64,000 nucleotides of DNA from a virus, in the IMG/VR virus record IMGVR_UViG_3300036861_000330, positions 1 through 64,000 of that record. One strand, given 5' to 3'. A model generated the notes under the pieces. The model saw only the letters and a program-made list of their open reading frames with translations. It had not been told where the DNA came from and ran no database searches. The translations under genes were made by a program, and so were the position numbers. Positions 14,892 to 63,836 of this stretch are shown in pieces (within the stretch, counting starts at the first letter, position 1; each line of letters opens with the position of its first letter).

Positions 14892-15203
14892 TACAGTGGC
14901 AACGGCAACAAACATAAAGATCACAATTCTTATGCAGTAGGACGGCACAAAAACAAGCTCTCCACATAGGACGGCACAAAAACAAGCTTTCCACAAACGA
15001 CCACAGGGGCAAGGCGCCTATGGAGCCACGAAAATCTATTGTAGCAACGGCGCCGTTTACAACTACATAGCCCAGACTAGGAATCTCCCACAGTGCACTG
15101 TTTGGGCAAAATATGGGTGACACACAAAAAGACCAAGAGCGTCTCGCCCACCACACTGCCCCTGTGGTCGCTTGTGGAAAGCGAAAGGACGGCACAAAAA
15201 CAA
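14892..15203 (+). other. Intergenic region with duplicated gene leaders
   Basis: TAGGACGGCACAAAAACAAG occurs twice (about 14939 and 14968), each followed by CT-TCCACA, copying the leader of neighbouring genes without a gene behind it. One GGCGCC/CGAAAATCT unit lies at 15013-15054. A 41-codon frame (15113-15238) overlaps the next gene and is doubtful. Confidence 0.5.
15013..15054 (+). repeat. GGCGCC/CGAAAATCT repeat, 1 unit
   Basis: First recognisable unit: GGCGCC, 10 variable bases, CGAAAATCT, about 11 variable bases, GGCGCC. Its variable part (TGGAGCCA before the core) recurs in the unit at 20049. Confidence 0.85.
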
Positions 15204-15416
15204 ATGCCGCAAGGAGTAAATACGAACTTCCGAATTGAAACCGTAACGGGTGAGGATCACCCATATACAAATAAACACTACAAGATTCACCATACTGGTA
15301 AGATAGATGTAAATGGCCACCGAAACACAGGGACAGATCTTCTTACTGTCTATACACCTGAGAATGTCCCTGTCGCAGAGTATGTCCTGCTCAATATCAC
15401 AAGGATCGTGTACTGA
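15204..15416 (+). CDS. Hypothetical protein, 70 aa
   Basis: ATG after AGGACGGCACAAAAACAA. Beta-rich; no family seen. The stop overlaps the next ATG. Confidence 0.65.
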   Translation: MPQGVNTNFRIETVTGEDHPYTNKHYKIHHTGKIDVNGHRNTGTDLLTVYTPENVPVAEYVLLNITRIVY

Positions 15417-15568
15417 TGGAAACACCTGAGCACAATATTGTGCTACTGCCAAATCTCGGTATTGAGGATCTCGGTATTGAGGATAACGACAGTGGAATCG
15501 ACTGGGGTCTTGACCCTGAAGACCAAGATCCGTTTGATGGCCCACGGAAAGACGAAGACTGGGTATGA
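15416..15568 (+). CDS. Acidic protein, 50 aa
   Basis: ATG within TGATG. Contains a short repeat LGIEDLGIED, then an Asp-rich tail. Unrecognised. Confidence 0.55.
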   Translation: METPEHNIVLLPNLGIEDLGIEDNDSGIDWGLDPEDQDPFDGPRKDEDWV

Positions 15569-15729
15569 ACGACATGAACTGCGAGATTTGCGGTGCTGAC
15601 ATCCTTGGCGTAAATAAAGTATCCGTGAGTCTTGTGACTTGGGACCCAGAAATAAAAACGAATGAGCTTAACACAATTGCATGCTCCGTTGAGCATGTCA
15701 TGGAAATAGTGAAGCGGGAAAGGAGGTGA
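15565..15729 (+). CDS. Small CxxC protein, 54 aa
   Basis: ATG within ATGA. MNCEICGADILG at the start gives a CxxC knuckle; another Cys follows in IACSVEHV. Probable metal-binding peptide. Its last codons contain the AGGAGG used by the next gene. Confidence 0.6.
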   Translation: MNDMNCEICGADILGVNKVSVSLVTWDPEIKTNELNTIACSVEHVMEIVKRERR

Positions 15730-15737
15730 AGTCGGCA

Positions 15738-16049
15738 ATGGCACTGCAAGAACGGTTCACAGTTGTCCAGGACAGTCGGTACGGGTACCCTGGAAAGCCA
15801 GACCCGCAGTACGAGCATGCGCTTGAGGTTCGACGGGTCACGTTTAAGTACGAAAAGGACCGGGTGGTTAGGGCAAATGGTCTGATCTTTCCAGACTATG
15901 CTATGGCACGTATGTATGCAGAGAAGGAAATGCAGCAGCTTAAGGATGGCATGCCCGGAAGATTTGCGAATGAGCGAGTGGATGGGCTTCGCATTTACGT
16001 ACCTACGAACGACCCACGGGTGGTGACTCCACTCGAACACGCAATCTAA
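15738..16049 (+). CDS. Hypothetical protein, 103 aa
   Basis: AGGAGG lies 11 bases upstream of this ATG; a GTG at 15726 is an in-frame alternative. Basic, mixed fold (VVQDSRYGYPGKPDPQYEHA). Unrecognised. Confidence 0.6.
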   Translation: MALQERFTVVQDSRYGYPGKPDPQYEHALEVRRVTFKYEKDRVVRANGLIFPDYAMARMYAEKEMQQLKDGMPGRFANERVDGLRIYVPTNDPRVVTPLEHAI

Positions 16050-16053
16050 GCTT

Positions 16054-16194
16054 ATTTGTGGACGATGTGACAAGCCGTCAACACTTATAGGACACTACAT
16101 GCAATGGTGTTATGCTCGTGGGGCATTTCTTGATTACCATTTCTGCTGTCCAGATGATTGTGAAGTATATGTGGATCGACAGGTAAAGAAATAA
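16054..16194 (+). CDS. Cys-rich protein without a canonical start
   Basis: The frame reads ICGRCDKPSTLIGHY ... FCCPDDCEVYVDRQVKK, a convincing C-x2-C ... CC-x3-C zinc pattern, and ends just before a terminator. No ATG, GTG or TTG exists between the in-frame stop at 16024 and this region; ATT at 16054 is the best candidate start. The coupling of the upstream gene end (16047-16049) to it would suit reinitiation. Confidence 0.4.
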   Translation: MCGRCDKPSTLIGHYMQWCYARGAFLDYHFCCPDDCEVYVDRQVKK

Positions 16195-16195
16195 C

Positions 16196-16228
16196 GGAGT
16201 GAAGGTCGTGACCTTCACTCCTTTATTT
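16196..16228 (+). terminator. Intrinsic terminator
   Basis: GGAGTGAAGGTC and GACCTTCACTCC form a near-perfect 12-bp stem followed by TTTATTT. Confidence 0.85.
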
Positions 16229-16256
16229 GGTTACTACAGGTCCAAAGGATATAATA

Positions 16257-16523
16257 GTGGGATGCACAATTTGCGGCAGCATCGCATCAAGGAAAGTGGA
16301 AGTTGAAGGGAAATGGATTTGTAGTGCCAGAAAGACATGCAATCGCCGTGCACGCAAGCGCGAAATCTCCGCGCCAGGAACAGTTCCTCAGTTTAAAGGT
16401 ATGATAATGTGCCATGAGTGTTTTGAGCATTATCATCCAAGCGAAAGAGAGGGCCATGTTCGTACGGCTGCGCATAAGAAGGGGGAACTACTTGTCCGAA
16501 AGATCATAGCGGGAGGAAGTTGA
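16257..16523 (+). CDS. Zinc-finger-like protein, 88 aa
   Basis: GTG start 7 bases after AAAGGA. CTICGS, a Cys pair (WICSARKTC) and MCHECFEHYHPSEREGH make up to eight candidate ligands in two clusters. Likely nucleic-acid binding. First gene after the terminator at 16196. Confidence 0.6.
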   Translation: MGCTICGSIASRKVEVEGKWICSARKTCNRRARKREISAPGTVPQFKGMIMCHECFEHYHPSEREGHVRTAAHKKGELLVRKIIAGGS

Positions 16524-16530
16524 TCCAACA

Positions 16531-16809
16531 ATGGATGAACAAAATACGCAGCAACCACAGAAGCCGTACTTACGTGGCAGTGAGGTTGCGGCAGTGCTTG
16601 GCTGCACACCAGGGACGGTAGCAAGATACGCACAGCGGGGGACGCTTCCGTCCATTCGCACGCTAGGTGGGCATCGTCGGTATCCAACGAAATTTATTTA
16701 TCGAGTTCGTGATGAGCTTTCTAAAGACTATGCATTTCGTCGCACGCTTGATGAGGCACTACTTGCCCTTCGAGAAGAAGAATCCATTGCAAGAGTGGAG
16801 GAACTCTAG
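16531..16809 (+). CDS. BldC/MerR-like helix-turn-helix protein, 92 aa
   Basis: Residues 13-45 read RGSEVAAVLGCTPGTVARYA then RGTLPSIRTLGGHRRYP, the winged MerR/excisionase-type helix-turn-helix of BldC-like actinobacterial regulators and phage excisionases. The C-terminal half is helical. Role as regulator or recombination directionality factor cannot be separated; no integrase is in this window. Confidence 0.8.
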   Translation: MDEQNTQQPQKPYLRGSEVAAVLGCTPGTVARYAQRGTLPSIRTLGGHRRYPTKFIYRVRDELSKDYAFRRTLDEALLALREEESIARVEEL

Positions 16810-16813
16810 CCAT

Positions 16814-17461: not shown

Positions 17462-17504
17462 GGCGCCTGAGTCAGGCACGAGAGTCTGATCCATGATCGG
17501 CGCC
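17462..17504 (+). repeat. GGCGCC/CGAAAATCT repeat, 1 unit
   Basis: GGCGCC ... CGAGAGTCT ... GGCGCC, in the intergenic region before the promoter of 17642. Confidence 0.8.
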
Positions 17505-19874: not shown

Positions 19875-19917
19875 GGCGTCTAGATATCGTACGAAAATCT
19901 TAGATAGTGTCGGCGCC
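19875..19917 (+). repeat. GGCGCC/CGAAAATCT repeat, 1 unit
   Basis: GGCGTC ... CGAAAATCT ... GGCGCC between a protein gene and tRNA-Arg(ACG). Confidence 0.85.
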
Positions 19918-20048: not shown

Positions 20049-20128
20049 GGCGCCTTGTGGAGCCACGAAAATCTATTGATGGGACGGCGCCTAACAGATA
20101 GTCGAGTATCTGAATGGATAGCGGCGCT
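20049..20128 (+). repeat. GGCGCC/CGAAAATCT repeats, 2 units
   Basis: Boundaries at 20049, 20086 and 20123 (last one GGCGCT); cores CGAAAATCT and CGAGTATCT. The first unit resembles that at 15013. Confidence 0.85.
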
Positions 20129-20212: not shown

Positions 20213-20350
20213 TGCAACGGTGTTACTTGTCTGGTTGGCGCTCGTACAGGCCGTAATTTGCGATCTAGCACCGTTGCATCACCTGGCACAGGGAGAGGAC
20301 TTTCCGCGGCGCTTTCACAGGCCATACTACAAGTTGCACTCTCCCTGTGC
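20213..20350 (+). ncRNA. Paired hairpins with a conserved loop motif
   Basis: Stem 1 TGCAACGGTG/CACCGTTGCA (20213-20222, 20269-20278) and stem 2 GCACAGGGAGAG/CTCTCCCTGTGC (20286-20297, 20339-20350) differ completely in sequence, yet both loops hold GGCGCT-nnn-ACAGGCC-n-TA (20237-20255, 20308-20326). Unlike stems around a conserved loop argue for a selected RNA structure. Confidence 0.6.
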
Positions 20351-20362
20351 CATCAACCTATC

Positions 20363-20405
20363 GGCGCCTATTACATGAGCGAAAATCTGCGATCTCCGCG
20401 GCGGC
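20363..20405 (+). repeat. GGCGCC/CGAAAATCT repeat, 1 unit, degenerate end
   Basis: GGCGCC ... CGAAAATCT, closing with GCGGCGGC instead of GGCGCC. Confidence 0.7.
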
Positions 20406-21384: not shown

Positions 21385-21427
21385 GGCGCCTATCGGAGTT
21401 ACGAAAATCTGTAGGCATGTCGGCGCC
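21385..21427 (+). repeat. GGCGCC/CGAAAATCT repeat, 1 unit
   Basis: Exact GGCGCC at both ends and perfect core CGAAAATCT; it fills the whole gap between two tRNA genes. Confidence 0.9.
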
Positions 21428-21715: not shown

Positions 21716-21758
21716 GGCGCCTATTACTGGAACTAAAAGATATACCCGCTGCGGCGCT
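21716..21758 (+). repeat. GGCGCC-type repeat, 1 degenerate unit
   Basis: GGCGCC ... TAAAAGATA ... GGCGCT; the core has drifted. Confidence 0.6.
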
Positions 21759-21848: not shown

Positions 21849-21889
21849 GGCGCCTGTTACGCTACGAATATCTAAGTCAAGTCGGCGTC
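21849..21889 (+). repeat. GGCGCC/CGAAAATCT repeat, 1 unit
   Basis: GGCGCC ... CGAATATCT ... GGCGTC between tRNA-Thr and tRNA-Ser. Confidence 0.85.
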
Positions 21890-22133: not shown

Positions 22134-22213
22134 GGCGCCTATAACTTGCCCGAGACGCTGTACAAACGGCGGCGCCTACGCCAGCCACGGAAATCTATGG
22201 TAGAACCGGCGCC
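22134..22213 (+). repeat. GGCGCC/CGAAAATCT repeats, 2 units
   Basis: Boundaries at 22134, 22171 and 22208; cores CGAGACGCT and CGGAAATCT. Confidence 0.8.
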
Positions 22214-22821: not shown

Positions 22822-22863
22822 GGCGCCTATAAGATGGCGAAAGTCTACGAGAACGACGGCGCC
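22822..22863 (+). repeat. GGCGCC/CGAAAATCT repeat, 1 unit
   Basis: GGCGCC ... CGAAAGTCT ... GGCGCC between tRNA-Arg and tRNA-Lys. Confidence 0.85.
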
Positions 22864-22947: not shown

Positions 22948-23136
22948 GGCGCCTACGAGTCGTTGGAAGCTATAGTTTAGCGGCGCCTATAGAAAGAGCG
23001 AATATCTAGGATTGAACCGGCGCCTAATTGATGCCCGAAAATCTCTACACAGGAGCGGCGCCTATCAGGTACACGAAAATCTGAACGACTTGCGGCGCCT
23101 GTAGTTGCACCGAAAATCTGTATCGCACGCGGCGCC
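22948..23136 (+). repeat. GGCGCC/CGAAAATCT array, 5 units
   Basis: Period 37-38 bp (boundaries 22981, 23018, 23056, 23093, 23130). GGCGCCT and CGAAAATCT are conserved; the two spacers of about 9-11 bp differ in every unit. Confidence 0.92.
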
Positions 23137-23923: not shown

Positions 23924-23966
23924 GGCGTCTAAACTCAAGCCGAGAATCTTATACTTTGGCGGCGCC
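23924..23966 (+). repeat. GGCGCC/CGAAAATCT repeat, 1 unit
   Basis: GGCGTC ... CGAGAATCT ... GGCGCC between two protein genes. Confidence 0.85.
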
Positions 23967-24423: not shown

Positions 24424-24726
24424 AGCGCCTTTCGAAACGGCGAAAAGCTAAGAACCTGTCGGCGCCTGTACATGACACGAACATCTGCTGTGGAAGCGGC
24501 GCCTGGATGAGGAACGAAAATCTATTGATCCTACGGCGCCTATGATAACGGCGAGAGTCTATTGATCCGACGGCGCCTATGATACCGGCGAGAAGCTGAA
24601 ATGCCCCCGGCGCCTACTATGAAGGCGAAAGTCTAGTACCTCCCCGGCGTCTGTCGAGCGGGCGAAAAGCTAATAACTGACCGGCGCCTAGGGCAGCATC
24701 GAATGTCTAAAGCTCGACGCGGCGCT
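24424..24726 (+). repeat. GGCGCC/CGAAAATCT array, 8 units
   Basis: Cores vary between CGAAAATCT and CGAAAAGCT. Boundary variants AGCGCC at the start and GGCGCT at the end. Two neighbours share TATGATA beginnings, indicating recent duplication. Confidence 0.92.
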
Positions 24727-24821: not shown

Positions 24822-24974
24822 GGCGCTTGTCGTACTCCCGAAAAGCTGTTCGGAAAACGGCGCCTACGTTCAAGGCGAAAGCTGTGACATCATCGGCGCC
24901 TCTGTTCCCTGCGAAAAGCTATATAATGCACGGCGCCTTCATACAGGACGAGTAGCTAAGGAGTGACCGGTGCT
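24822..24974 (+). repeat. GGCGCC/CGAAAATCT array, 4 units
   Basis: Cores CGAAAAGCT, CGAAAGCT, CGAAAAGCT, CGAGTAGCT. The final boundary GGTGCT contains the GTG start of the next gene, and the last spacer carries its AAGGAG. Confidence 0.88.
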
Positions 24975-25155: not shown

Positions 25156-25346
25156 GGCGCCTAACGCCGCTTCGAATAACTATGAACTAGACGGCGCCTA
25201 AAGAGCTAGCGAAAAACTGAGTGCAGGTCGGCGCCTGTATCAACAGCGAAAGTCTGTGCAGATCTCGGCGCCTATAGGTTTAACGAAAATCTGTGCGGAT
25301 CTCGGCGCCTGTGACATGAGCGAAAAACTGAATGCAGCTCGGCGCC
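25156..25346 (+). repeat. GGCGCC/CGAAAATCT array, 5 units
   Basis: Period about 37 bp; the middle units share GTGCxGATCTC spacers, again showing duplication then drift. Confidence 0.92.
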
Positions 25347-26267: not shown

Positions 26268-26347
26268 GGCGTCTAGTTAGCTTACGAAAATCTGTTATAG
26301 ATGCGGCGCCTATTGCGGGAACGAAAATCTGTACGTGCGTCGGCGCC
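26268..26347 (+). repeat. GGCGCC/CGAAAATCT repeats, 2 units
   Basis: Both cores perfect; first boundary GGCGTC. Confidence 0.9.
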
Positions 26348-26723: not shown

Positions 26724-26766
26724 GGCGCCTGTAGCTGCCACGAAAATCTATCCGAGATTCGGCGCC
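26724..26766 (+). repeat. GGCGCC/CGAAAATCT repeat, 1 unit
   Basis: Exact boundaries and core. Confidence 0.9.
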
Positions 26767-26932: not shown

Positions 26933-26976
26933 GGCGCCTAGTACCCATGGCGAAAATCTATGATTGCGCCGGCGCC
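26933..26976 (+). repeat. GGCGCC/CGAAAATCT repeat, 1 unit
   Basis: Exact boundaries and core. Confidence 0.9.
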
Positions 26977-27059: not shown

Positions 27060-27176
27060 GGCGCCTATGGATGAACTGCAACGCTAATGGCCGAGCGGCG
27101 CCTGTTCCATGGTCGAAAATCTATTGGTCAGACGGCGCCTGTTACACAGTCGAAAATCTATTGGCCTGACGGCGCC
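27060..27176 (+). repeat. GGCGCC/CGAAAATCT array, 3 units
   Basis: The last two units share TATTGG after the core, a recent duplication; the first core is drifted. Confidence 0.88.
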
Positions 27177-36922: not shown

Positions 36923-37038
36923 GGCGCCTAAGCCAGCAGCGAGAGTCTTGTCTTCAATCGGCGTCTATCACATTGCTGTGTAGTTAACACCCTGTCGGCG
37001 CCTACACATAGGGCGGAGATCTGTGTCAACTCGGCGCC
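36923..37038 (+). repeat. GGCGCC/CGAAAATCT array, 3 units
   Basis: Cores CGAGAGTCT, TGTGTAGTT (drifted) and CGGAGATCT; boundaries GGCGCC, GGCGTC, GGCGCC, GGCGCC. Confidence 0.8.
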
Positions 37039-38925: not shown

Positions 38926-38927
38926 TT

Positions 38928-39118: not shown

Positions 39119-39133
39119 TGAAGCGCAAGGGAA

Positions 39134-41437: not shown

Positions 41438-41442
41438 GAGGC

Positions 41443-41682
41443 GTGTTGTCGGGCGAGTGGATTTACAAAGGGTTTGGTATCGACGGCGACCAGGTCGCCT
41501 TTGCGATGGAAAGCCCCACAGGGGCACGGGTGAGTGTGCAGTGGCCAATGAACGAGAACGATCAAGAGGAGGTAGCTGACTTTATCAACCGGATGGAGCC
41601 CAGAGTTCTTGAGCATTTAACAAGCGAGACGAGCAGCTTTGAGCCAAGCGGAGGGAACGGGTTCAAGGCGGATGAGGGGTGA
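41443..41682 (+). CDS. Hypothetical protein, 79 aa
   Basis: GTG or the next TTG after TAGGAGG. Residues 25-31 (SPTGARV) are encoded by a GCCCC-ACA-GGGGC palindrome. Acidic helix follows. Ends 4 bp into the MazG-like gene. Confidence 0.6.
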   Translation: MLSGEWIYKGFGIDGDQVAFAMESPTGARVSVQWPMNENDQEEVADFINRMEPRVLEHLTSETSSFEPSGGNGFKADEG

Positions 41683-42008
41683 TCGATCTGGCGGTGACGC
41701 AGCGGACGATCTTCAAGTGGGTGTGTCGGAACTTCCCATCCACTGACGCGAAAAGTGACGCGAAAAGCCAGCTCCTCAATATTGGTGAGGAAGTCGGAGA
41801 ACTAATGCGCTGCGAGCTAAAGGGGTCGCAAGGAATTCGAGGTGATGACTGGGACGAACAGGCAAAGAAAGAGTTTGGTGATGTTATCTTGTCGCTGCTG
41901 TGTTATGCGTCGCTCAAGGGCTTTGATGCGGAGGAGGTAATTACTGCACGAATGAAGGAAGTGACTGTTCGCGACTGGCTTGCGAACAAGCTGACTGGCG
42001 GCGCCTAA
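41679..42008 (+). CDS. MazG-like NTP pyrophosphohydrolase
   Basis: GTG start. 109 aa with NIGEEVGELMRCELKG and KKEFGDVILSLLCY, the E-x2-E ... E-x2-D magnesium-binding helices of the all-alpha NTP-PPase fold. Such enzymes hydrolyse NTPs or dNTPs, and phage copies may adjust nucleotide or ppGpp pools. Its final codons Gly-Ala-stop are the GGCGCCTAA of the adjoining array. Confidence 0.8.
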   Translation: MIDLAVTQRTIFKWVCRNFPSTDAKSDAKSQLLNIGEEVGELMRCELKGSQGIRGDDWDEQAKKEFGDVILSLLCYASLKGFDAEEVITARMKEVTVRDWLANKLTGGA

Positions 42009-42321
42009 AACGCACGCGAAGATCTGTCAAGACCACCGGCGTCTGTACCAGGTACGAAGGTCTGTTGTCGAACCGGCGCCTACTGAAGAGTCGAAGGTCT
42101 AACCGCCGCGCGGCGCCGGTGGTGTAAGGTTGGCGCTTAATGGGAGAACGTAAATCTACCGGCTCCACGGCGCCTAGAGAATGGCGAGAAGCTGAAGTCA
42201 GTCCGGCGCCCTGCTCCAATTCGAACAGCTATGTAGTACACGGCGCCTAGTACATGACCGTATATTTATGATTGCGACGGCGCCTAGTGTGATAACGAAA
42301 AGCTAACAGAGGACCGGCGCC
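42000..42321 (+). repeat. GGCGCC/CGAAAATCT array, 8 units
   Basis: Begins within the last codons of the MazG-like gene. Cores range from CGAAGATCT and CGAAGGTCT to CGTAAATCT and CGAAAAGCT. One boundary is extended by TTGGCGCTT. Confidence 0.9.
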
Positions 42322-42346
42322 TGTAACGGGCCAGAAGGGGCACAAC

Positions 42347-42841
42347 ATGGGTAAGCTCACGTCGTTTGTCCAGCGGGACGAGTGGTACGATGCAAAGGAC
42401 AACGAGGTTGCTGCGGCATACCTCGACTGGGTGCTGAATGACGAGGACATTGACCCAGAGGACGAACTATTTTCACTCGTCGTTGATGAAGTTCGCCGTC
42501 GCCGTCGTGCGCTTGTGCGACAGCGAGAGCGAGAAGTTATTATCACGCAGCAACAAATGGTCCGTACTGGCGGTGTTGCAGCGACAATTGCAAATTTTCA
42601 GACTACTGGGTTTCGTGACTTGCCATTCACGCTACCTGGTGGGCGCCGTGTAGTTTGGGGGCTTGCAACGGTTGAAGAGCATGAGGAACGAGTCCGTATG
42701 CTTCAGCGCCACCAGGTGGCACTTGGCGAGTCCATCGATCAGCATCAGTACGCGATTCGACTCATCTCCGCAAACCCTGGCGCGAACTGTCTGAATGATG
42801 TTTACCATGACCGGCCTGTTCGTGTGGCGCCTGTGGCCTAG
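42347..42841 (+). CDS. Hypothetical protein, 164 aa
   Basis: ATG after AAGGGGCACAAC. A helical, Arg-rich middle (VVDEVRRRRRALVRQREREV) and FTLPGGRRVVWGLATVEEHE. Its last codons (RVAPVA) run through the first GGCGCC of the next array. Embedded between arrays. Unrecognised. Confidence 0.6.
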   Translation: MGKLTSFVQRDEWYDAKDNEVAAAYLDWVLNDEDIDPEDELFSLVVDEVRRRRRALVRQREREVIITQQQMVRTGGVAATIANFQTTGFRDLPFTLPGGRRVVWGLATVEEHEERVRMLQRHQVALGESIDQHQYAIRLISANPGANCLNDVYHDRPVRVAPVA

Positions 42842-43258
42842 CCGTAAATCTTATCCATGAGCGGCGCCTGGACGAGAAACGAAAATCTAAGGTATGGCCG
42901 GCGCCTACATCGGCTCCGAAGACTATGATCGACGCGGCGCCTAAGATATGCGCGAGTGCTGTATTAATACCGGCGCCTCTAGCGGCTGCGAAAATCTAAG
43001 AGTGAATCGGCGCCGAAAGAAGCGACGTGAGTCTAAGAGTGGATCGGCGCCTTGTCGAACTGCGGAATGCTTGTGGGAATCGGCGCCTAGTTGACGATCG
43101 TAAGGCTAACTTGCAGCGGCGTCTAACGACTACCCGAATGTCTGTATCTGCCGCGGCGCCTTTAGTGGCTACGTAAGTCTGATAGAGTATCGGCGCCTTA
43201 CCGAGGACCGTAAATTCGACAACCTTACGGCGAATGTGGTGGCTGATTCGCTGGCGCC
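42826..43258 (+). repeat. GGCGCC/CGAAAATCT array, 11 units
   Basis: Starts inside the end of gene 42347-42841. Period about 37 bp; cores CGTAAATCT, CGAAAATCT, CGAAGACT, CGAATGTCT and others. The last two units are degenerate. Confidence 0.9.
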
Positions 43259-43281
43259 ATAGTCAAAGGAACAGGGGAACA

Positions 43282-44064
43282 ATGAGTGACAAGTTTAAAA
43301 ACCTGCGAATCCATGCAAGGCAGTACATGCAGATCCAGCGCGTTAGGATTGCGCTTGGCAACCGACTAAGCCGGGCACAGGTTGACCCACTGCTGTTTAG
43401 CAACCAGATCGGCGCAGTTCGTGCAGCGGAAGCAATTGCAAAGAAGGACTTGAACGGCGAGTTCAAGGCAGTTGTCGCAAAGGAAATTATCGAGTGGCAA
43501 CAAAATTCTGCTGGTATCGGTGAGCATCTGCTCGCCCGGTTGCTTGGCGAGATTGGTGACCCAAAAACTGCCATCCCGATGTGGTGGGAAGGTACTGGTA
43601 AGGACCGTAAGCTCATGATTGGCGAGCCATACCAGCGAACGCCGCGGCAACTGTTTGCGTACTGCGGTGTTGGTGACCCAGAGCGGAAGCGTAAGAAAGG
43701 CATGACGGCTGAGGAAGCAGAAGCGCTGGGGCGGCCAACCGCAAAAATGATTGTGCGGCTGCTCGCAGAGTCGTGTATCAAGCAGGTTGTCAAGCCACTC
43801 GAAGATGGTGACTACGTGAACCAGGTGCAGTACCGTGCGGTGTATGACAAGGAACGTGCCCGGTACAATACTCGTGAGGGCTGGACGGACGCACGGAAGC
43901 ACAACGCTGCGCTTCGTCGTGTTGGCCGCGCGATCCTCTATGACCTGTGGCTCGTTGCGAATGGTAAGAAGGCCGGCTACACCGCAAGCGGGTCGGTGAC
44001 GTACTGCAACCGGCGCCAACCGTCCCCACTAAGGACAGGCGGAACGCCAGTCGAAAACAGGTAG
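43282..44064 (+). CDS. IS110-type Transposase_20-like helix-hairpin-helix protein, 260 aa
   Basis: ATG after GGGGAACA. Residues about 75-135 read QNSAGIGEHLLARLLGEIGD ... RTPRQLFAYCGVGDP, close to the C-terminal domain of IS110/IS1111 transposases (G-I-G-x2-L-A-x2-L-x-A-E-I-G-D ... A-Y-x-G). The DEDD catalytic N-terminal domain is missing. The tail has a helical WTDARKHNAALRRVGRAILYD segment. Probably a phage-adapted DNA- or RNA-binding protein rather than an active transposase. Confidence 0.6.
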   Translation: MSDKFKNLRIHARQYMQIQRVRIALGNRLSRAQVDPLLFSNQIGAVRAAEAIAKKDLNGEFKAVVAKEIIEWQQNSAGIGEHLLARLLGEIGDPKTAIPMWWEGTGKDRKLMIGEPYQRTPRQLFAYCGVGDPERKRKKGMTAEEAEALGRPTAKMIVRLLAESCIKQVVKPLEDGDYVNQVQYRAVYDKERARYNTREGWTDARKHNAALRRVGRAILYDLWLVANGKKAGYTASGSVTYCNRRQPSPLRTGGTPVENR

Positions 44065-44082
44065 TACAAAGTAGTGGTGTGC

Positions 44083-44122
44083 ACGGGTTGGCAGCCATTA
44101 TGGCTGCCAACCCGTTATTTAT
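44083..44122 (+). terminator. Intrinsic terminator
   Basis: ACGGGTTGGCAGCC-attat-GGCTGCCAACCCGT, a 14-bp perfect stem followed by TATTTAT. Confidence 0.88.
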
Positions 44123-44137
44123 ATTGGAGGGCTCCGT

Positions 44138-44776
44138 ATGACAAACAAGGATCTCACGTATATTGCGTTTGTGCTTGACCGTTCTGGCTCAATGATGAGT
44201 GTTGCAAGCGACACAGTTGGTGGGTTCAACTCTTTCATTAAGGATCAGCGTGAGCAGCCTGGGGCCTGCCGCGTCACGCTCACGCAGTTTGACACCGTGT
44301 ATGAAATCGTTTACCAAAACAAGCCAATCGGTGACGTGCCACCACTCGACTTCCATCCACGTGGCCGGACAGCGCTGTATGACGCAATGGCACGTACTAT
44401 TATCGAGACTGGTGAACAGCTCGCCACGGTGCCAGAAGCCGAACGTCCGGCAAATGTTTACCTCATTACGCTGACGGATGGCCTTGAAAACGCTTCGCAA
44501 GAGTTCTCGGCTGATACTCTTCGAAGGCTGATTGAACGGCAGCGTAATCAGTACCAGTGGCAGTTTGTATTCCTTGGCGCAAACCAGGATGCCATTCTGA
44601 CAGCCCAAGATCTCGGGATGCTCGGGCAGGCAGCAATGGAGTATCTGGTAACGCCAGAAGGCACACGAGGAGCGTACGCCGCTACGTCAGCGAGTGTTGC
44701 ACGCTCGCGGAAGAGTGGTCAGAGTGTGTCATTCACCGATGAGGAACGTGAACAGGCAATGCAAAAAGGGCAGTAA
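44138..44776 (+). CDS. von Willebrand factor A-domain protein, 212 aa
   Basis: ATG after GGAGGGCTCCGT. The MIDAS start AFVLDRSGSM (D-x-S-x-S) lies at residues 8-17, followed by GRTALYDAM and ITLTDGLEN, the T and D of a complete metal site. An intracellular vWA protein (no signal peptide), perhaps a scaffold or chaperone partner. Flanked by a terminator and repeat units. Confidence 0.85.
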   Translation: MTNKDLTYIAFVLDRSGSMMSVASDTVGGFNSFIKDQREQPGACRVTLTQFDTVYEIVYQNKPIGDVPPLDFHPRGRTALYDAMARTIIETGEQLATVPEAERPANVYLITLTDGLENASQEFSADTLRRLIERQRNQYQWQFVFLGANQDAILTAQDLGMLGQAAMEYLVTPEGTRGAYAATSASVARSRKSGQSVSFTDEEREQAMQKGQ

Positions 44777-44780
44777 GCAC

Positions 44781-44860
44781 AGCGCCCAGTGACAACGCGA
44801 AAATCTAAGCGAACCTCGGCGCCTACGGAACCACCGAAAATCTCGTGTACACGCGGCGCC
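44781..44860 (+). repeat. GGCGCC/CGAAAATCT repeats, 2 units
   Basis: Both cores perfect. The first 20 bases of the left unit (GCGCCCAGTGACAACGCGAA, 44782-44801) are repeated exactly at 45459-45478. Confidence 0.9.
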
Positions 44861-44888
44861 TACAGACTTACGAAAACCTTTGGACCCT

Positions 44889-44923
44889 CTCCTGGGGTAG
44901 CACTCTGAGTGCTACCCTAGGAG
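44889..44923 (+). promoter_or_regulatory. Hairpin containing an SD-like sequence
   Basis: CTCCT-g-GGGTAGCAC-tctga-GTGCTACCC-t-AGGAG. The right arm includes AGGAGG; a second AGGAGG, used by the gene 44944, follows 10 bases later. A terminator or translational switch is possible. Confidence 0.5.
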
Positions 44924-44943
44924 GTTTCCTGTCAGGAGGGTTT

Positions 44944-45114
44944 GTGTCAAGAACAAGCGTTACCATTACCATCAGGGTCGGCTTTGTCGTGCCAGATGGC
45001 GAAGACGAAGAGGAAGACAAAGAGGATGTTGCGCATGAAGTCGCCGATGAAATTGAGCAACACATAAAAGCCCGCTTCCCACACTTGGAACATGTTTTTG
45101 TGGCGAGAATCTAA
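44944..45114 (+). CDS. Hypothetical acidic protein, 56 aa
   Basis: GTG after AGGAGGGTTT. Beta strand (TSVTITIRVGFVVP), very acidic middle (DGEDEEEDKEDV), amphipathic end. Lies between repeat units, downstream of a hairpin. Confidence 0.6.
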   Translation: MSRTSVTITIRVGFVVPDGEDEEEDKEDVAHEVADEIEQHIKARFPHLEHVFVARI

Positions 45115-45123
45115 TCGCTACGC

Positions 45124-45463
45124 GGCGCTTACAGGCTTAGCGAAAATCTACCGATGCGTCGGCGCCTATAGGATGCCCGAGGATCTACAAGGAGTGGCGG
45201 CGCCTATTAGTGGAGCGAAAATCTGACGCCTAACCGGCGCCTGTACAAAAGACGAGAAGCTGTTACTGACTCGGCGCCTTTTCACTGAGCGAATATCTAT
45301 TGAGCTTCCGGCGCCTACTACTGGTGCGAAAATCTAGTCAAGCCCCGGCGCCTACTAGACCGCCGAAGATCTAAAGGCTGGGCGGCGCCTAATCAGCGGA
45401 CGAAAATCTGCGAGCCTGTCGGCGCCTTTCACGATGTCGAACATCTACGGCAACAACGGCGCC
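45124..45463 (+). repeat. GGCGCC/CGAAAATCT array, 9 units
   Basis: Very regular 37-bp period with mostly perfect CGAAAATCT cores; spacers all different. Ends at the duplicate of the 44782 sequence, where the next gene begins in place of the core. Confidence 0.92.
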
Positions 45464-45465
45464 CA

Positions 45466-45912
45466 GTGACAACGCGAATGACCAAAACATGGGCGGTGCC
45501 AATCAAGAAGGGAGTCACATTGCTTGGACTTGTCCCAACCCAAACCAAGTCAACAGCAATGCAGGTTCGGAAGATCGCCACAACGATTCCGAATTACAGA
45601 GCGCTTGTTACACCAGATGTGAAGCTGCCACTGCGACACGCTACAGGTGACCGCGCTGTTGCGCTTGGCGTTATGTGGCTCGACGGTGCTTGTCCTGACT
45701 GGCACACACGCATCACAAAGTCGGTTGATCTAAAGTCCAACTTCAACTGCGTCGGTGGGCAGGTTTTCGGTTCCTACAGCGGGATGTTGCGCCGTGCGCC
45801 AGTCTGGCTATCTCCGATAGGGCAGCACCGATGGGCCGAGCAGCATGGGTTTATCGGCATACGGCACGAACGTGCCTGGAAAGCAGTAATTGCCGAACGG
45901 CGCACACGCTAA
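45466..45912 (+). CDS. Hypothetical protein starting inside a repeat unit, 148 aa
   Basis: Candidate starts GTG 45466 and ATG 45478 both lie inside a repeat unit, and no SD is visible. The body (MQVRKIATTIPNYRALVTPD ... VMWLDGACPDWHTRI) looks protein-coding and basic. The 5' end appears created by recombination within the array. Confidence 0.5.
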   Translation: MTTRMTKTWAVPIKKGVTLLGLVPTQTKSTAMQVRKIATTIPNYRALVTPDVKLPLRHATGDRAVALGVMWLDGACPDWHTRITKSVDLKSNFNCVGGQVFGSYSGMLRRAPVWLSPIGQHRWAEQHGFIGIRHERAWKAVIAERRTR

Positions 45913-46450: not shown

Positions 46451-46744
46451 TTGGACGATCAACAAAAGCTCGATGCCGTTATAGAGGTATTGACGGAATC
46501 ACATCTGCCCGATTACGGCGGCTACCCTTACGATTACAGTTGGATAGACGACAAAAATGATAATGATTTGGTCATAGCCGCCTTGGACCCGGCCAAAGAT
46601 ATGAACCGGACGGAAGTACAACTTTACAACTCAGACAAGCTGGTGGATTGGTTTGACCGTGCTGCTCAATTCGCAGTCGAGGACGGTAAAGAAGAGAAGG
46701 ATGCTGTCGAATATCTATACGAAGTCGGTTACGACGAAGAATGA
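46451..46744 (+). CDS. Acidic hypothetical protein, 97 aa
   Basis: TTG start, weak SD. Acidic throughout (GYPYDYSWIDDKNDNDLVIA ... EEKDAVEYLYEVGYDEE). Overlaps the ParB-like gene start. Unrecognised. Confidence 0.55.
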   Translation: MDDQQKLDAVIEVLTESHLPDYGGYPYDYSWIDDKNDNDLVIAALDPAKDMNRTEVQLYNSDKLVDWFDRAAQFAVEDGKEEKDAVEYLYEVGYDEE

Positions 46745-46745
46745 G

Positions 46746-47694
46746 GTGGAGGTGGCGGTCGAGATAAAAATGATGGCCATTGACGCCATCAAAATCGAAA
46801 ACAGAATCAGAAGGCGGGCTGATAAGATTGAAAGTCTAGCCAAAAGTATCAAAGAACTAGGCATGATCAATCCGCCGGCCGTAACCAGTGATGGCAGACT
46901 CATTGCTGGTGAACGACGAATCTTGGCAGCGAAGCACCTTGGGCAAACAACCGTAGAAGTCCGTGTCCTGACGTTTGAGAATGCCGTTGATCTCGTTCGA
47001 GCTGAGATGGAAGAAAACACTGAGCGTGAGAATTTTACGAAGGGGGAGGCACAGCTTGCTGCCGACCGATGGGCGAAGGCCATTGCTGCCACGCAGCGTA
47101 TCGGCAGACCATCCAACCTGCCCGAGTCGGACAAATCAGACGGACCGGCCAATCGAAACTCCGCAAATTCTGCGGAGTTTTCCAGAACAGCCCGAGAGAC
47201 GAGGGCTCAGGCGGCCAAGGCGACCGGCTACTCACATGACACCTTAGAAAAAGTCAAAAAGATACGTGAAATCGCCGAGGGCAAGCAGTCGGTTCCAAGG
47301 GAAGCAAGAGTCGCTGCACAGGAAGCGATTGCTGACCTGGATACGAATCCGAACGCGAAGGTTGCACCGAAGCTCCAAGCCGTGGAGAAGTTGATGCCGA
47401 AACCTCGACGGCCAACACGAGAACAACGAGAACGTACTGCAAGAACAAAGCGCAAAGCTGAACAGGTAGAGAAAGATCCGTTGGTTGAGCAAGAGCGTGT
47501 GAAAACTGAACAAGCACGCGCCATGCTTAGAGCGCGTCAAATGAGCACGATCGTTGCAATTCGTTATTTAAATAACATGCGCGACCATGAAGCGTTAGTT
47601 CAATCGTTCGACCGTGTTGACGCACAAGAAATTACACGATTATTACCAGTCGCGGCTGAGAGCTTAGACGAATTCGTCAAGCATTGGAGGAGCC

Positions 47695-47711
<17 letters not shown>
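46746..47711 (+). CDS. ParB-like DNA-binding protein, 321 aa
   Basis: GTG near AGGTGGAGG; GTG 46752 or ATG 46770 are alternatives. Classical ParB N-terminal domain: LAKSIKELGMINPPAVTSDG, LIAGERRILAAKHLG, then RAEMEENTERENFTKGE. A helix-turn-helix follows (SRTARETRAQAAKATGYSHD), then a long charged coiled coil. Role in partition, or in transcription control as for other phage ParB-like proteins; no ParA is present. Confidence 0.8.
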
Positions 47712-49810: not shown

Positions 49811-52105
49811 ATAGAAAAAGCTCCTTACGCTGATTGCAGCGTCTGCCCGCTAAAAAATAACAAGTTCGTCCCATCTCATGGCCCAACGTATGCAAAAACA
49901 GTAGTGATCGGTGAAGCCCCCGGACTGCAAGAGACAGTCCGGGGGCAGCCGTTTGTTGGAAGCTCTGGCAAGCTTCTAAGAATGATACTAAAGCACCACG
50001 ATATCAACGAAGACGAAGTCTTCTTCACCAACGTCTGTTTGTGTAGACCAGAGAAGAACGCGGACCCGCCGAAAGAAGCCATCAAAGCATGTTCTGAGCG
50101 GCTTTACCACGAAGTCTCTTCACGCGGTCCTGACACGATTTTGGCCCTCGGAAACTTTGCCGCAAAAGCAGTGCTGGCAACGAACACTGGCATCATGCAG
50201 CTCCGGGTTGGCCCGCCAAAGCAAAGCATCATTTACCCTGACACGAAGATCATTCCAACAGTTCACCCCGCCGCGTGTCTTCGAAGCGCTGACTACTTTC
50301 CGTTCCTCGTCACCGACGTTGGGAAGGTTCACTACAAACCAACAGTGTGGCGAGAGCCGTGGTACTTCGTCCCGTCAACAGAGTGGGGCGCCATCGCAGC
50401 GCTCATGTTCCTGCAACGTCAGAAGAAACTCGCCGTCGATATTGAGGTGGCCATTGACAAAGACACCGCGTTTGAGCACCCAAGTCAGTATTCCATCCTC
50501 TGCGTCGGGCTTGCTTATACTGCCCACCAAGCAGTTGTCATTCCTGGACCTCTGCTGGGAAACGATCGAGTACGATTCGCGCTCAGATCGTGTCTCAGTC
50601 ACGTTCAGATCATCGCGCAGAACGGCAAATTTGATCTTCCAGGTTTGTCAAGCGTTGGAGAGTTTAGACTTACCGCAGACACCATGCTCGCTCACTATTG
50701 CCTTGACGAACGTGGAGGAGTCCACGGACTAAAAGCCATGAGCGCCGAATATCTCGGCGCTCCCAACTATGCTGCCGAGATCCGGCAGTACATACGAGGA
50801 CCAGATGCCAACTATGGCAATATTCCAGTTGACATCCTGCATCGATACAACGCCTACGACTGCACGCTCACCTACGAACTTGCGGAGCTGTTCGAGCAGC
50901 AGCTCCAAGACAAAGGGTTACGAGAACTGCACGACTTTCTCGTGGAGGCGTCCAATGCATTGATGCAGGTCGAGTCAGAAGGGGTGGCGATCGACCTTGC
51001 AGAGCTTGATCAACTTGATGGGGATTTTGCGGCTCGCCTTTATTCATTGGAGCGGGAACTGGCACAATGGGTCGCCAACCCTCGCTCCCCTCTTCAGGTT
51101 AAAGCCTCTTTGGCTTCGAGAGGAATTAATACTGCATCGACAGATGTGTCCAATCTGCGTGCAATACGGGAGTCACTGGCTTCGTACCTGTATGATGAAC
51201 GCGCAAAAGATGTTGATGAATTCCTCAAAACACTCTTAGTATACCGAAAAGAACAGAAGCTTCATGGTACGTACATTAAGGGGGTCAGAAAGCGACTCTA
51301 TCACGGACGGATCTATCCGACGTACCTTCTCCACGGAACGACCACAGGAAGGTTGTCATGTCGTAATCCGAACGTTCAAAACATTCCGCGAGAATCCCGT
51401 ATACGTAACCTGTTTGTCCCGGCTGCTGGAAACCGCTTTATTCAGGCGGACTTCAAGCAAGGAGAGTTACGAGTCATTGCTGCCCTCAGCGGCGACCAGT
51501 ACCTCATTGACGCACTTGCCCAAGGACGTGACTTTCTGAGTGAAATCGCGACAAGGTTTTACGGCGATCACTTTACAAAAGAACAGCGCGTCAAGGCAAA
51601 AAACATTTTTTATGGTAGCTCATACGGCGCCGAGCCACTAAAACTTACTGAGTATACGAATGGGTCAGTGAAAGAAGCGGCACGATTCCAACACGAACTT
51701 TTTGAGATGATGCCGAACGTCCGAACGTGGCAACGAGACACTCGACAAAAAGTACTCGACGGCGAGGATTTGGTTACCACATTTGGTCGGCACCGGCGCT
51801 ACATGCTCATCACACCAGAAAACAAGAAGGACATATTAAATGAATGTCTTGCATTTGTTCCTCAGTCTACGCTTAGCGATATATGCCTCGCTAGCCTTGT
51901 GGTTCTTGTTCAACGAGGATATCATCCTCGCATTACTGTTCACGACTCTATCGTGGTTGAGTGTGCCGCTTCTGGAATACTCGAAATAAGCGAGGCGCTA
52001 AGTGACATCCTTACCAGAACTGCCGCAGCCAAGTTCTCAACTGCCGTCCCCTTCCCCGTTGACATCAAGGTCGGAACCTCATGGGGAGACGCCGAGGCGT
52101 CCTGA
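49811..52105 (+). CDS. Uracil-DNA glycosylase / DNA polymerase I fusion, 764 aa
   Basis: The frame needs the segment ADCSVCPL upstream of the first GTG (49904), because family 4 glycosylases bind Fe4S4 with C-x2-C plus two later Cys (NVCLC, KACSERL). The only plausible start is AUA at 49811, 6 bases after GGAG; an in-frame stop lies at 49796. Domains: glycosylase (GEAPGLQE, FVGSSGKLL) about 1-200; 3'-5' exonuclease (AVDIEVAID, LAHYCLDER, Y-x3-D) about 210-390; A-family polymerase (PTYLLHGTTTGRLSCRNPNV, QADFKQGELRVIA, KNIFYGSSYG, VHDSIVVE) to the end. Removes or avoids uracil while replicating. Confidence 0.85.
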   Translation: MEKAPYADCSVCPLKNNKFVPSHGPTYAKTVVIGEAPGLQETVRGQPFVGSSGKLLRMILKHHDINEDEVFFTNVCLCRPEKNADPPKEAIKACSERLYHEVSSRGPDTILALGNFAAKAVLATNTGIMQLRVGPPKQSIIYPDTKIIPTVHPAACLRSADYFPFLVTDVGKVHYKPTVWREPWYFVPSTEWGAIAALMFLQRQKKLAVDIEVAIDKDTAFEHPSQYSILCVGLAYTAHQAVVIPGPLLGNDRVRFALRSCLSHVQIIAQNGKFDLPGLSSVGEFRLTADTMLAHYCLDERGGVHGLKAMSAEYLGAPNYAAEIRQYIRGPDANYGNIPVDILHRYNAYDCTLTYELAELFEQQLQDKGLRELHDFLVEASNALMQVESEGVAIDLAELDQLDGDFAARLYSLERELAQWVANPRSPLQVKASLASRGINTASTDVSNLRAIRESLASYLYDERAKDVDEFLKTLLVYRKEQKLHGTYIKGVRKRLYHGRIYPTYLLHGTTTGRLSCRNPNVQNIPRESRIRNLFVPAAGNRFIQADFKQGELRVIAALSGDQYLIDALAQGRDFLSEIATRFYGDHFTKEQRVKAKNIFYGSSYGAEPLKLTEYTNGSVKEAARFQHELFEMMPNVRTWQRDTRQKVLDGEDLVTTFGRHRRYMLITPENKKDILNECLAFVPQSTLSDICLASLVVLVQRGYHPRITVHDSIVVECAASGILEISEALSDILTRTAAAKFSTAVPFPVDIKVGTSWGDAEAS

Positions 52106-52883: not shown

Positions 52884-53381
52884 TTGGAAACCTATGTCAA
52901 GACAACTGATCCAGCGCATTTCCAAATCGGAATGACGCACCCACTTGTGGTGGCCCTTGATCCAGGAGAGACCACAGGGGCAGCACTACGAGACTCGGAA
53001 GGTAACTGGACAATTGCACATTTTACAACGCTGTTAGAAGTATACACGTACTTGTGTGATACCAATCCGCCAGTCATTATTTACGAACGCTTCATTATTC
53101 AGCCTAGACAAAAGATTGTACCCGCGCCACTCAAAGTCATTGGTGTCGTAGAACTGTATCAGCAGCAGTTTGATCCTAGATTAGTTGCACAAACGCCTTC
53201 GCAGGCCAAAAATTTTGTGTCTGATACACTTCTGCGACGAAACAACCTTTGGATTCGAGGAATGCAGCATGGGCGCGACGCAGTTCGACACTTGTTGTAC
53301 TGGCTAATTACAGAACGAAAAGATGCATCCTGGCTCGAAGTACTCAAACCACCAGCGCCTCAAGAGGAGACGACAAGCTAA
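52884..53381 (+). CDS. RuvC-like Holliday junction resolvase, 165 aa
   Basis: TTG start. LVVALDPGETTGAALR holds the first catalytic Asp in the D-P-G-x-T-T-G context; VIIYERF gives the conserved Glu; GRDAVRHLLYWL near residue 131 carries the late Asp. This is the RNase H-fold of RuvC-like phage resolvases that debranch replication and recombination junctions. Confidence 0.8.
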   Translation: METYVKTTDPAHFQIGMTHPLVVALDPGETTGAALRDSEGNWTIAHFTTLLEVYTYLCDTNPPVIIYERFIIQPRQKIVPAPLKVIGVVELYQQQFDPRLVAQTPSQAKNFVSDTLLRRNNLWIRGMQHGRDAVRHLLYWLITERKDASWLEVLKPPAPQEETTS

Positions 53382-53390
53382 GACTTATGC

Positions 53391-53469
53391 GGCGCCTTGG
53401 TACAGCGCGAGAGACTATAGTTTCGCGGCGCCTAATAGAGCATCGTATATCTAGACTTCCATCGGCGCC
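53391..53469 (+). repeat. GGCGCC/CGAAAATCT repeats, 2 units
   Basis: Cores CGAGAGACT and CGTATATCT; exact GGCGCC boundaries. Confidence 0.82.
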
Positions 53470-55768: not shown

Positions 55769-55810
55769 GGCGCCTATTTGACATCCGAAAATCTGTATGC
55801 TAGCGGCGCC
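55769..55810 (+). repeat. GGCGCC/CGAAAATCT repeat, 1 unit
   Basis: Perfect core; lies just before the permuted tRNA genes. Confidence 0.88.
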
Positions 55811-62792: not shown

Positions 62793-62888
62793 TGGCACTG
62801 AGCAACAGCACTACATGGAGCTAACGTAGCACAACGTCTATGCAGAAGCCGAAAATCTAAAGGAACGGCGGCGTTGTAACACACAAAG

Positions 62889-62938
62889 TCCGACCCTACC
62901 TGGAAGGTCTCGCGGCGGCGAGCAGGTAGGGTCGGACA
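62889..62938 (+). ncRNA. 15-bp hairpin between arrays
   Basis: GTCCGACCCTACCTG pairs perfectly with 62924-62938; an inner CTCGC/GCGAG helix tops it. A degenerate repeat unit precedes it and the large array follows. Confidence 0.55.
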
Positions 62939-62943
62939 TCTTT

Positions 62944-63354
62944 GGCGCTTAATGACCGGACGAAAATCTGTGATACAGTCGGCGCCTATAGAAGCCTCGA
63001 AAATCTAACGCTGAAACGGCGTCTATGAACCTGACGAAAATCTAGCCCGACACCGGCGCCTACGCATGGGACGAAAGTCTGCTCGAACCTCGGCGCCTAT
63101 TAGAAGTACGAAAATCTGTGATAGTGTCGGCGCCTACGCGGTTTGCGCAAAGCTAGAGTGTACGCGGCGCCTGCTACATTTCGAATGACTAGGGGATCTC
63201 GGCGCCTGACACGAACGCGAATATCTACAGCAGGTTCGGCGCCTAGGGACTCTGCGAAAATCTATATCCGGCTCGGCGCCTAGGGACTTAGCGAAAATCT
63301 ATATCCCACGCGGCGCCTATGGACTCAGCGAAAATCTAAGTTTGGCCCGGCGCT
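62944..63354 (+). repeat. GGCGCC/CGAAAATCT array, 11 units
   Basis: Longest regular array. Most cores are perfect. Two neighbouring units share TAGGGACT before and TATATCC after the core, showing tandem duplication followed by divergence of spacers only. Confidence 0.93.
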
Positions 63355-63359
63355 GTAGT

Positions 63360-63430
63360 GCCCACGTGGCTGAGTGGTGAGGCGCAGGTCTGCAAAACCT
63401 GCTTCCCCGGTTCGATTCCGGGCGTGGGCT
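63360..63430 (+). tRNA. tRNA-Cys (GCA)
   Basis: Acceptor GCCCACG/CGTGGGC; anticodon stem CAGGT/ACCTG, loop CTGCAAA. Confidence 0.9.
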
Positions 63431-63436
63431 CGTAGA

Positions 63437-63509
63437 GGGGCTGTAGCTCATATGGCAGAGCGCTGCGTTCGCATCGCAGAGGTAATGGGTTCAATTCCCA
63501 TCAGCTCCA
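63437..63509 (+). tRNA. tRNA-Ala (CGC)
   Basis: Acceptor GGGGCTG/CAGCTCC; anticodon stem CTGCG/CGCAG, loop TTCGCAT. Confidence 0.9.
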
Positions 63510-63512
63510 CAT

Positions 63513-63555
63513 GGCGTCTATGCCTGAGGCGAAAATCTGTGCTATTCGCGGCGCC
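63513..63555 (+). repeat. GGCGCC/CGAAAATCT repeat, 1 unit
   Basis: GGCGTC ... CGAAAATCT ... GGCGCC between the two tRNA-Ala genes. Confidence 0.88.
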
Positions 63556-63559
63556 AGTA

Positions 63560-63633
63560 GGGGCTATAGCTCAATTTGGCAGAGCGCTTGCGTGGCACGC
63601 AAGAGGTTGTGGGTTCGAGTCCCACTAGCTCCA
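63560..63633 (+). tRNA. tRNA-Ala (GGC)
   Basis: Acceptor GGGGCTA/TAGCTCC; anticodon stem CTTGC/GCAAG, loop GTGGCAC. Confidence 0.88.
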
Positions 63634-63647
63634 CGAAGTATCTATTT

Positions 63648-63836
63648 GGCGCCTTTTCCTCAGTCGGAAGTCTGTCCCTCGCACGGCGCCTATTTCTCTG
63701 CGGAAAGCTAATGTACGATCGGCGCCTACTTGGTACTCGGTTATCTAAAGATCTCACGGCGCCTGTCTCCGACTCGCGAGTCTATGTAGCTCACGGCGCC
63801 TAAGTCGCCACGCAAGTCTCTTTACCTATCGGCGCC
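63648..63836 (+). repeat. GGCGCC/CGAAAATCT array, 5 units
   Basis: Cores CGGAAGTCT, CGGAAAGCT, CGGTTATCT, CGCGAGTCT, CGCAAGTCT: more drifted than other arrays but with intact GGCGCC boundaries. A sixth partial unit follows. Confidence 0.85.

Follow-up and report, generated by a model that had tools for sequence, protein, structure and literature searches.

Probable dual-repeat TIGR guide units dispersed through a phage genome that encodes a TasA-like protein

The phage record IMGVR_UViG_3300036861_000330 (IMG/VR; 103,156 bases, G000 below), of which bases 1-64000 form the window analysed, carries a two-block repeat spaced mostly at 37 bp, a gene for a 260-residue protein that looks like the TasA proteins of TIGR-Tas systems, and a set of tRNA genes. 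A first-pass annotation had reported about 100 copies of the repeat at more than 30 places, all on the + strand and in arrays of up to 11, and scans of the whole record on both strands bore these figures out. Exact matches to GGCGCCT-N8..11-CGAAAATCT occurred at 28 places on the + strand and at none on the - strand, and the reversed pattern gave no match in the whole 103,156-base record; within the window, CGAAAATCT by itself was found 36 times on the + strand and never on the - strand. A two-block matrix scan returned 102 + and 1 - matches at ≥14 bits; when the cut-off was raised to ≥16 bits, 98 remained on the + strand and none on the - strand. One mononucleotide shuffle gave no match at 12 or at 14 bits. 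The 75 units used to train the matrix all had GGCG[CT][CT] at both ends; we hence also anchored on a single block, and GGCGCC lay upstream of 28 and downstream of 32 of the 36 CGAAAATCT copies. The two conserved blocks work together, as the first-pass annotation had it. The working set, defined by a rounded matrix score of at least 14, comprised 103 units in 34 clusters on the + strand, of which 32 clusters with 99 units fall in the window and 2 clusters with 4 units beyond it; the largest has 11 units.

Measured against greedy open reading frames (ORFs; ≥100 aa, 77% of the record covered), 98 of the 103 units lay for the most part outside ORFs. The copies had been described as intergenic or clipping gene ends. 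Of the five other units, one (53354) overlaps the end of a + strand ORF, and four fall within minus-strand ORFs that span the tRNA genes.

The central part of the locus consists of a Tas gene (43282-44064, + strand) directly behind an array of 9 scored units (42826-43258, +), and of a terminator-like hairpin after the gene (44083-44115, +) with a 15-bp stem, the fold of 44064-44130 having a z-score of -5.95. Further arrays of 8 scored units (42000-42321, +), 3 units (44781-44882, +) and 9 units (45124-45463, +) lie on either side. A search of 42000-45500 against Rfam gave nothing at E≤1, and an 8.5-kb stretch had no megablast match among phage records. A ParB-like protein is encoded at 46653-47711, 2.6 kb behind the Tas gene and not adjacent to it, and has no match in the comparison relative G001 introduced below; tasParB genes operonised with tasA have been described (Faure et al. 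2025, PMC12045711).

Each unit consists of an edge repeat CGGCGCCTR (9 nt), a 9-nt spacer A, a loop repeat CGAAAATCTR (10 nt) and a 9-nt spacer B. In the dual-repeat TIGR arrays described by Faure et al. (PMC12045711), two repeats, edge and loop, each 8-12 nt long, alternate and are separated by 9-nt spacers, both repeats end in a box D and a box C that diverge together, the loop is A-rich, edges are truncated at both ends of an array, spacer A and the reverse complement of spacer B do not covary, and a Rho-independent terminator is typical but not obligatory. The alternation of two distinct repeats of 9 and 10 nt in the phage matches the first of these features. Spacer A was 9 nt long in 91 of 103 units, a length also preferred by the matrix search; the corresponding count for spacer B was 87 of 98. 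Spacer positions held near zero information, apart from a slight T/A bias at the first base of each spacer. Edge and loop share both ends, CG (box D) and CTR (box C). At 44 places anchored on edges only (CGGCGCCT with GGCGCC 37 bp on), the loop began with CG in 44 and ended in CTR in 43 (C25 in 43, T26 in 44; last base 24 A, 19 G, 1 C), and its middle was looser, at 33-36 of 44 per base. Within arrays, C preceded GGCGCC in 98% of cases and T followed it in 95%; at the termini of the 29 clusters with a last edge (the other 5 of the 34 lack one), C stood before the first edge in 11 and T after the last edge in 3, indicating that the outer edges are truncated. Spacer A did not covary with the reverse complement of spacer B (2.33 vs 2.25 shuffled).

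The first-pass annotation had noted that N units always carry N+1 copies of GGCGCC, which held for the 98 of 103 units with a correctly spaced downstream edge and failed in the 5 where that edge is absent. It had also proposed that neighbouring GGCGCC copies pair in RNA and show the second block in a loop. Such pairing is possible (here GCC with GGC, the A-rich block in the loop), and both the count and the pairing idea would follow from guide RNA layout, because the 36-nt tigRNA has its 5' and 3' ends derived from two neighbouring edges, which pair there (PMC12045711). By sequence, then, the repeats show the dual-repeat anatomy of TIGR-Tas arrays. The view that they fit no known family thus did not hold: the TIGR-Tas family is already in print, and the repeat class is a known one.

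The protein encoded beside the array points in the same direction. Its ORF is intact. A hidden Markov model (HMM) built from 8 array-neighbour Tas proteins of other contigs found it at E=1.7e-6, PHROG_4285 ('transposase') covered it at 2.3e-23, and phmmer matched it to PDB 9MTY, a TasR structure (PMC12045711), at 8.4e-6. A profile of 13 Tas proteins matched PDB 9mty at 2.4e-59 and TasH at 1.6e-30. With the predicted fold as a Foldseek query, all ten rows at E≤0.001 were TasR or TasH chains, and the best match to the fold was TIGR-TasR 9mty (Z 14.3), over TasR residues 108-322, that is, the Nop part only. Residue 1 of the window Tas aligned near TasR residue 108 and TasH residues 64-66, and neither Pfam nor the fold alignment revealed in its 260 residues the N-terminal HNH or RuvC nuclease domain of TasH and TasR. 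Because no such domain was seen, we assigned the protein, with its predicted Nop/IS110 C-terminal fold, as TasA-like; on the model it looks like a nuclease-less TasA.

We further compared the record with G001, an IMG/VR contig of 72 kb. A single G000 ORF (49904-52105) joins a family A polymerase to an N-terminal uracil-DNA glycosylase domain, and its relative in G001 is 62% identical. The 37-bp block pattern of G000 had no match in four polymerase relatives, G001 included, which for G001 is explained by repeat letters that differ: over-represented words there recur at 36 and 37 bp as TGCGAGCCA, 9 bases, TGAAAYCCA and 9 bases, and GTGCGAGCC occurs 82 times on the + strand and never on the - strand. 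Both G001 repeats carry the boxes TG...CCA, and its edge TGCGAGCCA is non-palindromic. From sequence, the two phages appear to have the same array architecture in different letters. A GGCGCC hairpin, proposed earlier, is therefore not the common principle; what the two share is the box C/D ends.

G001 carries its own Tas adjoining an array, and a scan with its repeat reached 13 further viral contigs. Repeat matches were confined to one strand in 13 of 14 records, the other (G018) having one on each strand. Tas was present on 12 of the 13 contig stretches, the exception, L237, being a stretch of 1,002 bases. In 8 contigs the ORFs next to the array encoded related proteins, some 250-360 aa in length, and the 8-protein HMM further found L225, L229, L230, L231, G001 and the window ORF, with nothing else among the frames searched. 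Pfam identified some array-neighbour proteins as Transposase_20, the IS110 C-terminal domain. At a blastp threshold of 1e-6 the window Tas and the G001 Tas did not match (21% identity in a full-length alignment), and 54 other G000/G001 ORF pairs did, at a median of 49%, some of these being overlapping frames of one gene. Tas and the boxes thus diverge faster than the phage backbone. When the G000 Tas by itself served as query in a scan of viral contigs, no relative turned up. The G000 block pattern had 4 single matches in viral contigs, none with the 37-bp pair pattern, and occurred in at least 120 stretches of genome contigs, with one match each among the 80 listed; we dismissed these single matches as chance, no expectation having been computed.

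Taken together, we consider it highly likely that the repeats are dual-repeat TIGR units that serve as guides for one TasA-like protein. By analogy with the processing and structures described in PMC12045711, cuts in the middle of each edge would turn + strand transcripts into guides roughly 37 nt long, and a TasA dimer would hold edge and loop through their boxes. At an 18-bp DNA site, which would be strongly bent, spacer A would pair with one strand and spacer B with the other. Cleavage would not be expected, because no nuclease domain was seen in the window Tas; we propose instead that the complex may bind and bend its target DNA and so block transcription or replication. Units lying 4-17 bp ahead of tRNA genes might ride on tRNA transcripts and be partly released by maturation of the tRNA 5' end.

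Several observations weigh against this interpretation. The window Tas matched no Pfam family at E≤1, its identity to the other array-neighbour Tas proteins is 21-27%, its model has a mean predicted local distance difference test score (pLDDT) of 71.8 with residues 104-137 and 237-260 under 50, and helical folds may reach Z near 13 from arrangement alone. Terminator-like hairpins, typical of TIGR arrays, stood behind only 2 clusters out of the 34, with a random rate of 0.03, and the unit is 37 nt long, not 36. The Tas gene is distant from most clusters. The array at 93806-93922 (+; 3 units, beyond the window) would need a + transcript, because it points against the flanking portal and terminase genes, both on the minus strand. 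No spacer targets above chance were found in the phage's own genome, in its two relatives G001 and G003 or in the 2.57 Mb of DNA searched.

The least improbable alternative, which we nevertheless regard as very unlikely, is that a DNA-binding protein recognises the repeats as oriented operator, partition or origin iterons, in which the spacers merely set distance. Conserved blocks with free spacers at strict spacing, the ParB-like gene and the one array oriented against its flanking genes would all suit such sites. They leave unexplained, however, why a Tas/Nop gene stands by arrays in G000, in G001 and in 12 of 13 other array contigs, why edges are truncated at cluster ends, and why the boxes change jointly in both repeats (CG/CTR in G000, TG/CCA in G001), and they account less well for the 9-nt spacers.

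A shade less probable still is the idea that the repeats, without any guide function, serve in RNA processing or as spacers that keep tRNAs and messages apart. This corresponds to the job of separating or processing other transcripts suggested at first, which our analysis did not support. A tRNA 5' end follows the end of 18 of the 34 clusters within 20 bp (10 have a tRNA within 20 bp before their start), GGCGCC copies can pair in RNA, and among 8 variants of the upstream edge, 6 have C replaced by T, so that a G-U pair can still form. Yet 14 of 27 short tRNA-tRNA gaps lack a scored unit (13 have one), so tRNA genes can adjoin without a unit; runs of as many as 11 units would be superfluous; the G001 edge is not palindromic; and a single 37-nt unit folds no better than shuffles (z -0.28). 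Decay of arrays that are real by descent, with most dispersed units out of use, is about as improbable: degenerate loops or edges in some units and the 5 absent downstream edges speak for it, but the boxes are near invariant while spacers vary freely, and the Tas ORF is intact.

Returning to the guide units, their likeness to dual-repeat TIGR arrays lies in the alternating short repeats, the common box D/C ends, the 9-nt dual spacers, the truncated array ends and the adjacent Nop-protein gene. They differ in the 37-bp unit, in CG and CTR boxes instead of UG and CCA, in the scatter of about 100 units over 34 places as opposed to mostly 5-15 beside the Tas gene, in the scarcity of terminators and in the constant palindromic GGCGCC edge. 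In the main-text portions of PMC12045711 and PMC12385481 covered here, neither a dispersed layout associated with tRNAs nor CG/CTR boxes nor a mixed array type is described. IS110/IS1111 bridge-RNA transposases (IS621, PDB 8WT6) share the C-terminal Nop-like fold (Z 12.2) and the split-guide principle, but the window Tas aligns only from IS621 residue 124, so it lacks the DEDD domain, and many small guides stand here in place of one bridge RNA. As in box C/D snoRNA genes (as treated in PMC12045711), box C/D-ended guide units are dispersed over the genome; unlike those genes, the Tas relatives target DNA, and fibrillarin and k-turns were neither sought nor seen. A CRISPR array was rejected, the two repeats of 9 and 10 nt with 9-nt spacers contrasting with one repeat of about 25-36 nt and like-sized spacers, and attC sites and iterons were rejected as full answers for the repeats; for CRISPR and attC the first-pass annotation had come to the same view.

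To place the protein in a lineage, we built a tree, in which the window Tas grouped with four actinophage proteins (support 99/97) on a long branch (1.71), so that the grouping of long-branch rows is to be read with caution. Its identity to these TasA-like proteins, among them Euphoria gp70, Peregrin gp187 and Talia1610 gp255, was 31-35%. In three of the four, Euphoria (L241), Peregrin (L240) and Talia1610 (L239), the roughly 450 bases upstream of the gene held at least two stem-loops, these counts being made with no random control; the fourth, prophiFSAT01-1 (L242), has a 55-base gap behind the gene and was not counted with them, judged by eye and period only. A relative of the window Tas was found in 78 phage records, 75 of them from Mycobacterium, annotated among the rows listed as hypothetical protein, transposase or helix-turn-helix protein, and cluster-A-like mycobacteriophages may often carry TIGR systems of the stem-loop kind. 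As three of the four tree neighbours carry stem-loops, a Tas from a stem-loop neighbourhood would here serve fixed-edge units. The phage resembles stem-loop TIGR arrays in this grouping of its Tas and in unit 23924 (23924-23966, +), where edge pairing extends 9 bp outward so that fixed edges and a stem-loop-like feature occur together. It departs from them in repeats and spacing of the dual-repeat type and in 28 of 29 clusters that showed no outward stem above chance, one of at least 6 bp being found in 1 of 29. The edge itself is a 6-base palindrome.

Spacer comparisons gave hints of how the arrays may have grown. Among 41 adjacent G000 pairs, 7 of 82 spacers shared at least 7 of 9 bases with the neighbour, against 0.29 expected, which agrees with the earlier impression of recently duplicated neighbours; the excess fits copying followed by drift. 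Between units more than 500 bp apart, 6 pairs of spacer B shared at least 8 of 9 bases (null mean 0.39; 0/300), and 1 pair of spacer A did so (0.51). The distant spacer B recurrences (8/9 bases) linked units 19875, 63092 and 93806; 17462 and 42826; 42242 and 93880; and 23094 and 63275, with spacer A unrelated there. Elsewhere, L226 showed a neighbour-spacer excess (2 spacers where 0.26 were expected), most other phages did not, and L230 had one unit in three exact copies.

We searched for targets as spacer A plus the reverse complement of spacer B with a gap of 0-2 bases, a geometry derived from the cut sites and overhangs reported in PMC12045711. For 79 G000 units there were 25 distinct near-matches (≤2 mismatches) in the DNA searched, against 25.3 with shuffled pairing. 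The 169 units from other phages gave 80 near-matches against 56.2 shuffled, or 64.2 when shuffled within the same phage (standard deviation 7.6; the observed count was reached in 1 of 40 shuffles); no gap length was preferred, and none of the matches was perfect. The figure for other-phage spacers is thus slightly high, and we regard the excess as undecided.

We tentatively propose, at somewhat less than even chance, that the TasA guides form a genome-wide, snoRNA-like repertoire seeded in intergenic gaps, many in tRNA operons whose maturation would aid guide release. The repertoire would have grown by tandem copying and spacer drift and not by capture of foreign DNA, its Tas would come from the stem-loop lineage, and the fixed edges would mark a path, either independent or intermediate, by which stem-loop TIGR gave rise to the dual-repeat type. 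The natural targets of arrays, their origin and growth, and the role of nuclease-less TasA are listed as open for TIGR-Tas (PMC12045711), and a single phage that combines 103 guides with one TasA, and whose relative lacks some of the insertions, offers material for all three. For instance, the array at 93806-93922 is absent from G001, where the orthologous ORFs 38688-40208 and 40205-41653 overlap by 4 bases. The spacer copies at intermediate divergence would be a first sequence hint of array growth by duplication, the tRNA neighbourhood suggests a testable route of guide release, and actinophage relatives with known laboratory hosts make target finding practical.

The remaining clusters, all on the + strand, are spread from the left part of the window to beyond its end. 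ARAGORN predicted 37 tRNA genes in the window (8183-63950), 34 of them above the Rfam threshold, and none in the rest of the record; 37 is a large set for a phage of such size. The matrix scan placed single units at 15013-15054 and 17462-17504. In the tRNA region, one unit (19875-19917) lies 11 bp and two units (20049-20128) lie 8 bp ahead of tRNA-Arg, and a unit at 20363-20391 is without a downstream edge repeat. Single units occupy the tRNA-Thr/tRNA-Val gap (21385-21427), the stretch ahead of tRNA-Thr (21716-21758), and the gaps tRNA-Thr/tRNA-Ser (21849-21889) and tRNA-Arg/tRNA-Lys (22822-22863); two units fill the tRNA-Val/tRNA-Ser gap (22134-22213), and the tRNA-Lys/tRNA-Lys gap holds four (22982-23136) with a degenerate fifth at 22948. 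Larger clusters flank tRNA-Gly, with 8 units ahead of it (24424-24726) and 3 scored units behind it (24822-24960), and 5 units precede tRNA-Ile (25156-25346). These are followed by 2 units ahead of tRNA-Phe (26268-26347), single units in the tRNA-Glu/tRNA-Leu (26724-26766) and tRNA-Leu/tRNA-Asp (26933-26976) gaps, and 3 units between tRNA-Asp and tRNA-Glu (27060-27176).

Further along, 2 scored units with a degenerate third at 36960 (36923-37038), a single unit ahead of tRNA-Thr (37384-37426) and 4 scored units (38928-39118) precede the Tas locus, and 3 units (53354-53469) and 1 unit (55769-55810) lie beyond it. Near the end of the window, a unit with weak edges (62833-62875) is followed by the 11-unit cluster ahead of tRNA-Cys (62944-63354), one unit in a tRNA-Ala/tRNA-Ala gap (63513-63555) and 6 scored units in the tRNA-Ala/tRNA-Pro gap (63648-63859). 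The last cluster, beyond the window, is at 100185-100227.

Three minor observations concern other parts of the record. Two strong stem-loops at 20213-20278 and 20284-20352, flanked by tRNA-Arg and a dual-repeat unit, share GGCGCTnnnACAGGCCrTA in the loop; the GGCGCT...ACAGGCC motif of these two was not significant, and they may be candidate stem-loop guide units. The terminase ORF (record 93928-96387; L134 9928-12387) encodes 819 aa, against 482 aa in G001, and its halves match different PHROG terminase profiles, perhaps reflecting an intein or insertion. The start of the record (window 1-127) consists of 14 perfect copies of ACATACCAT, possibly a contig-end or assembly effect.

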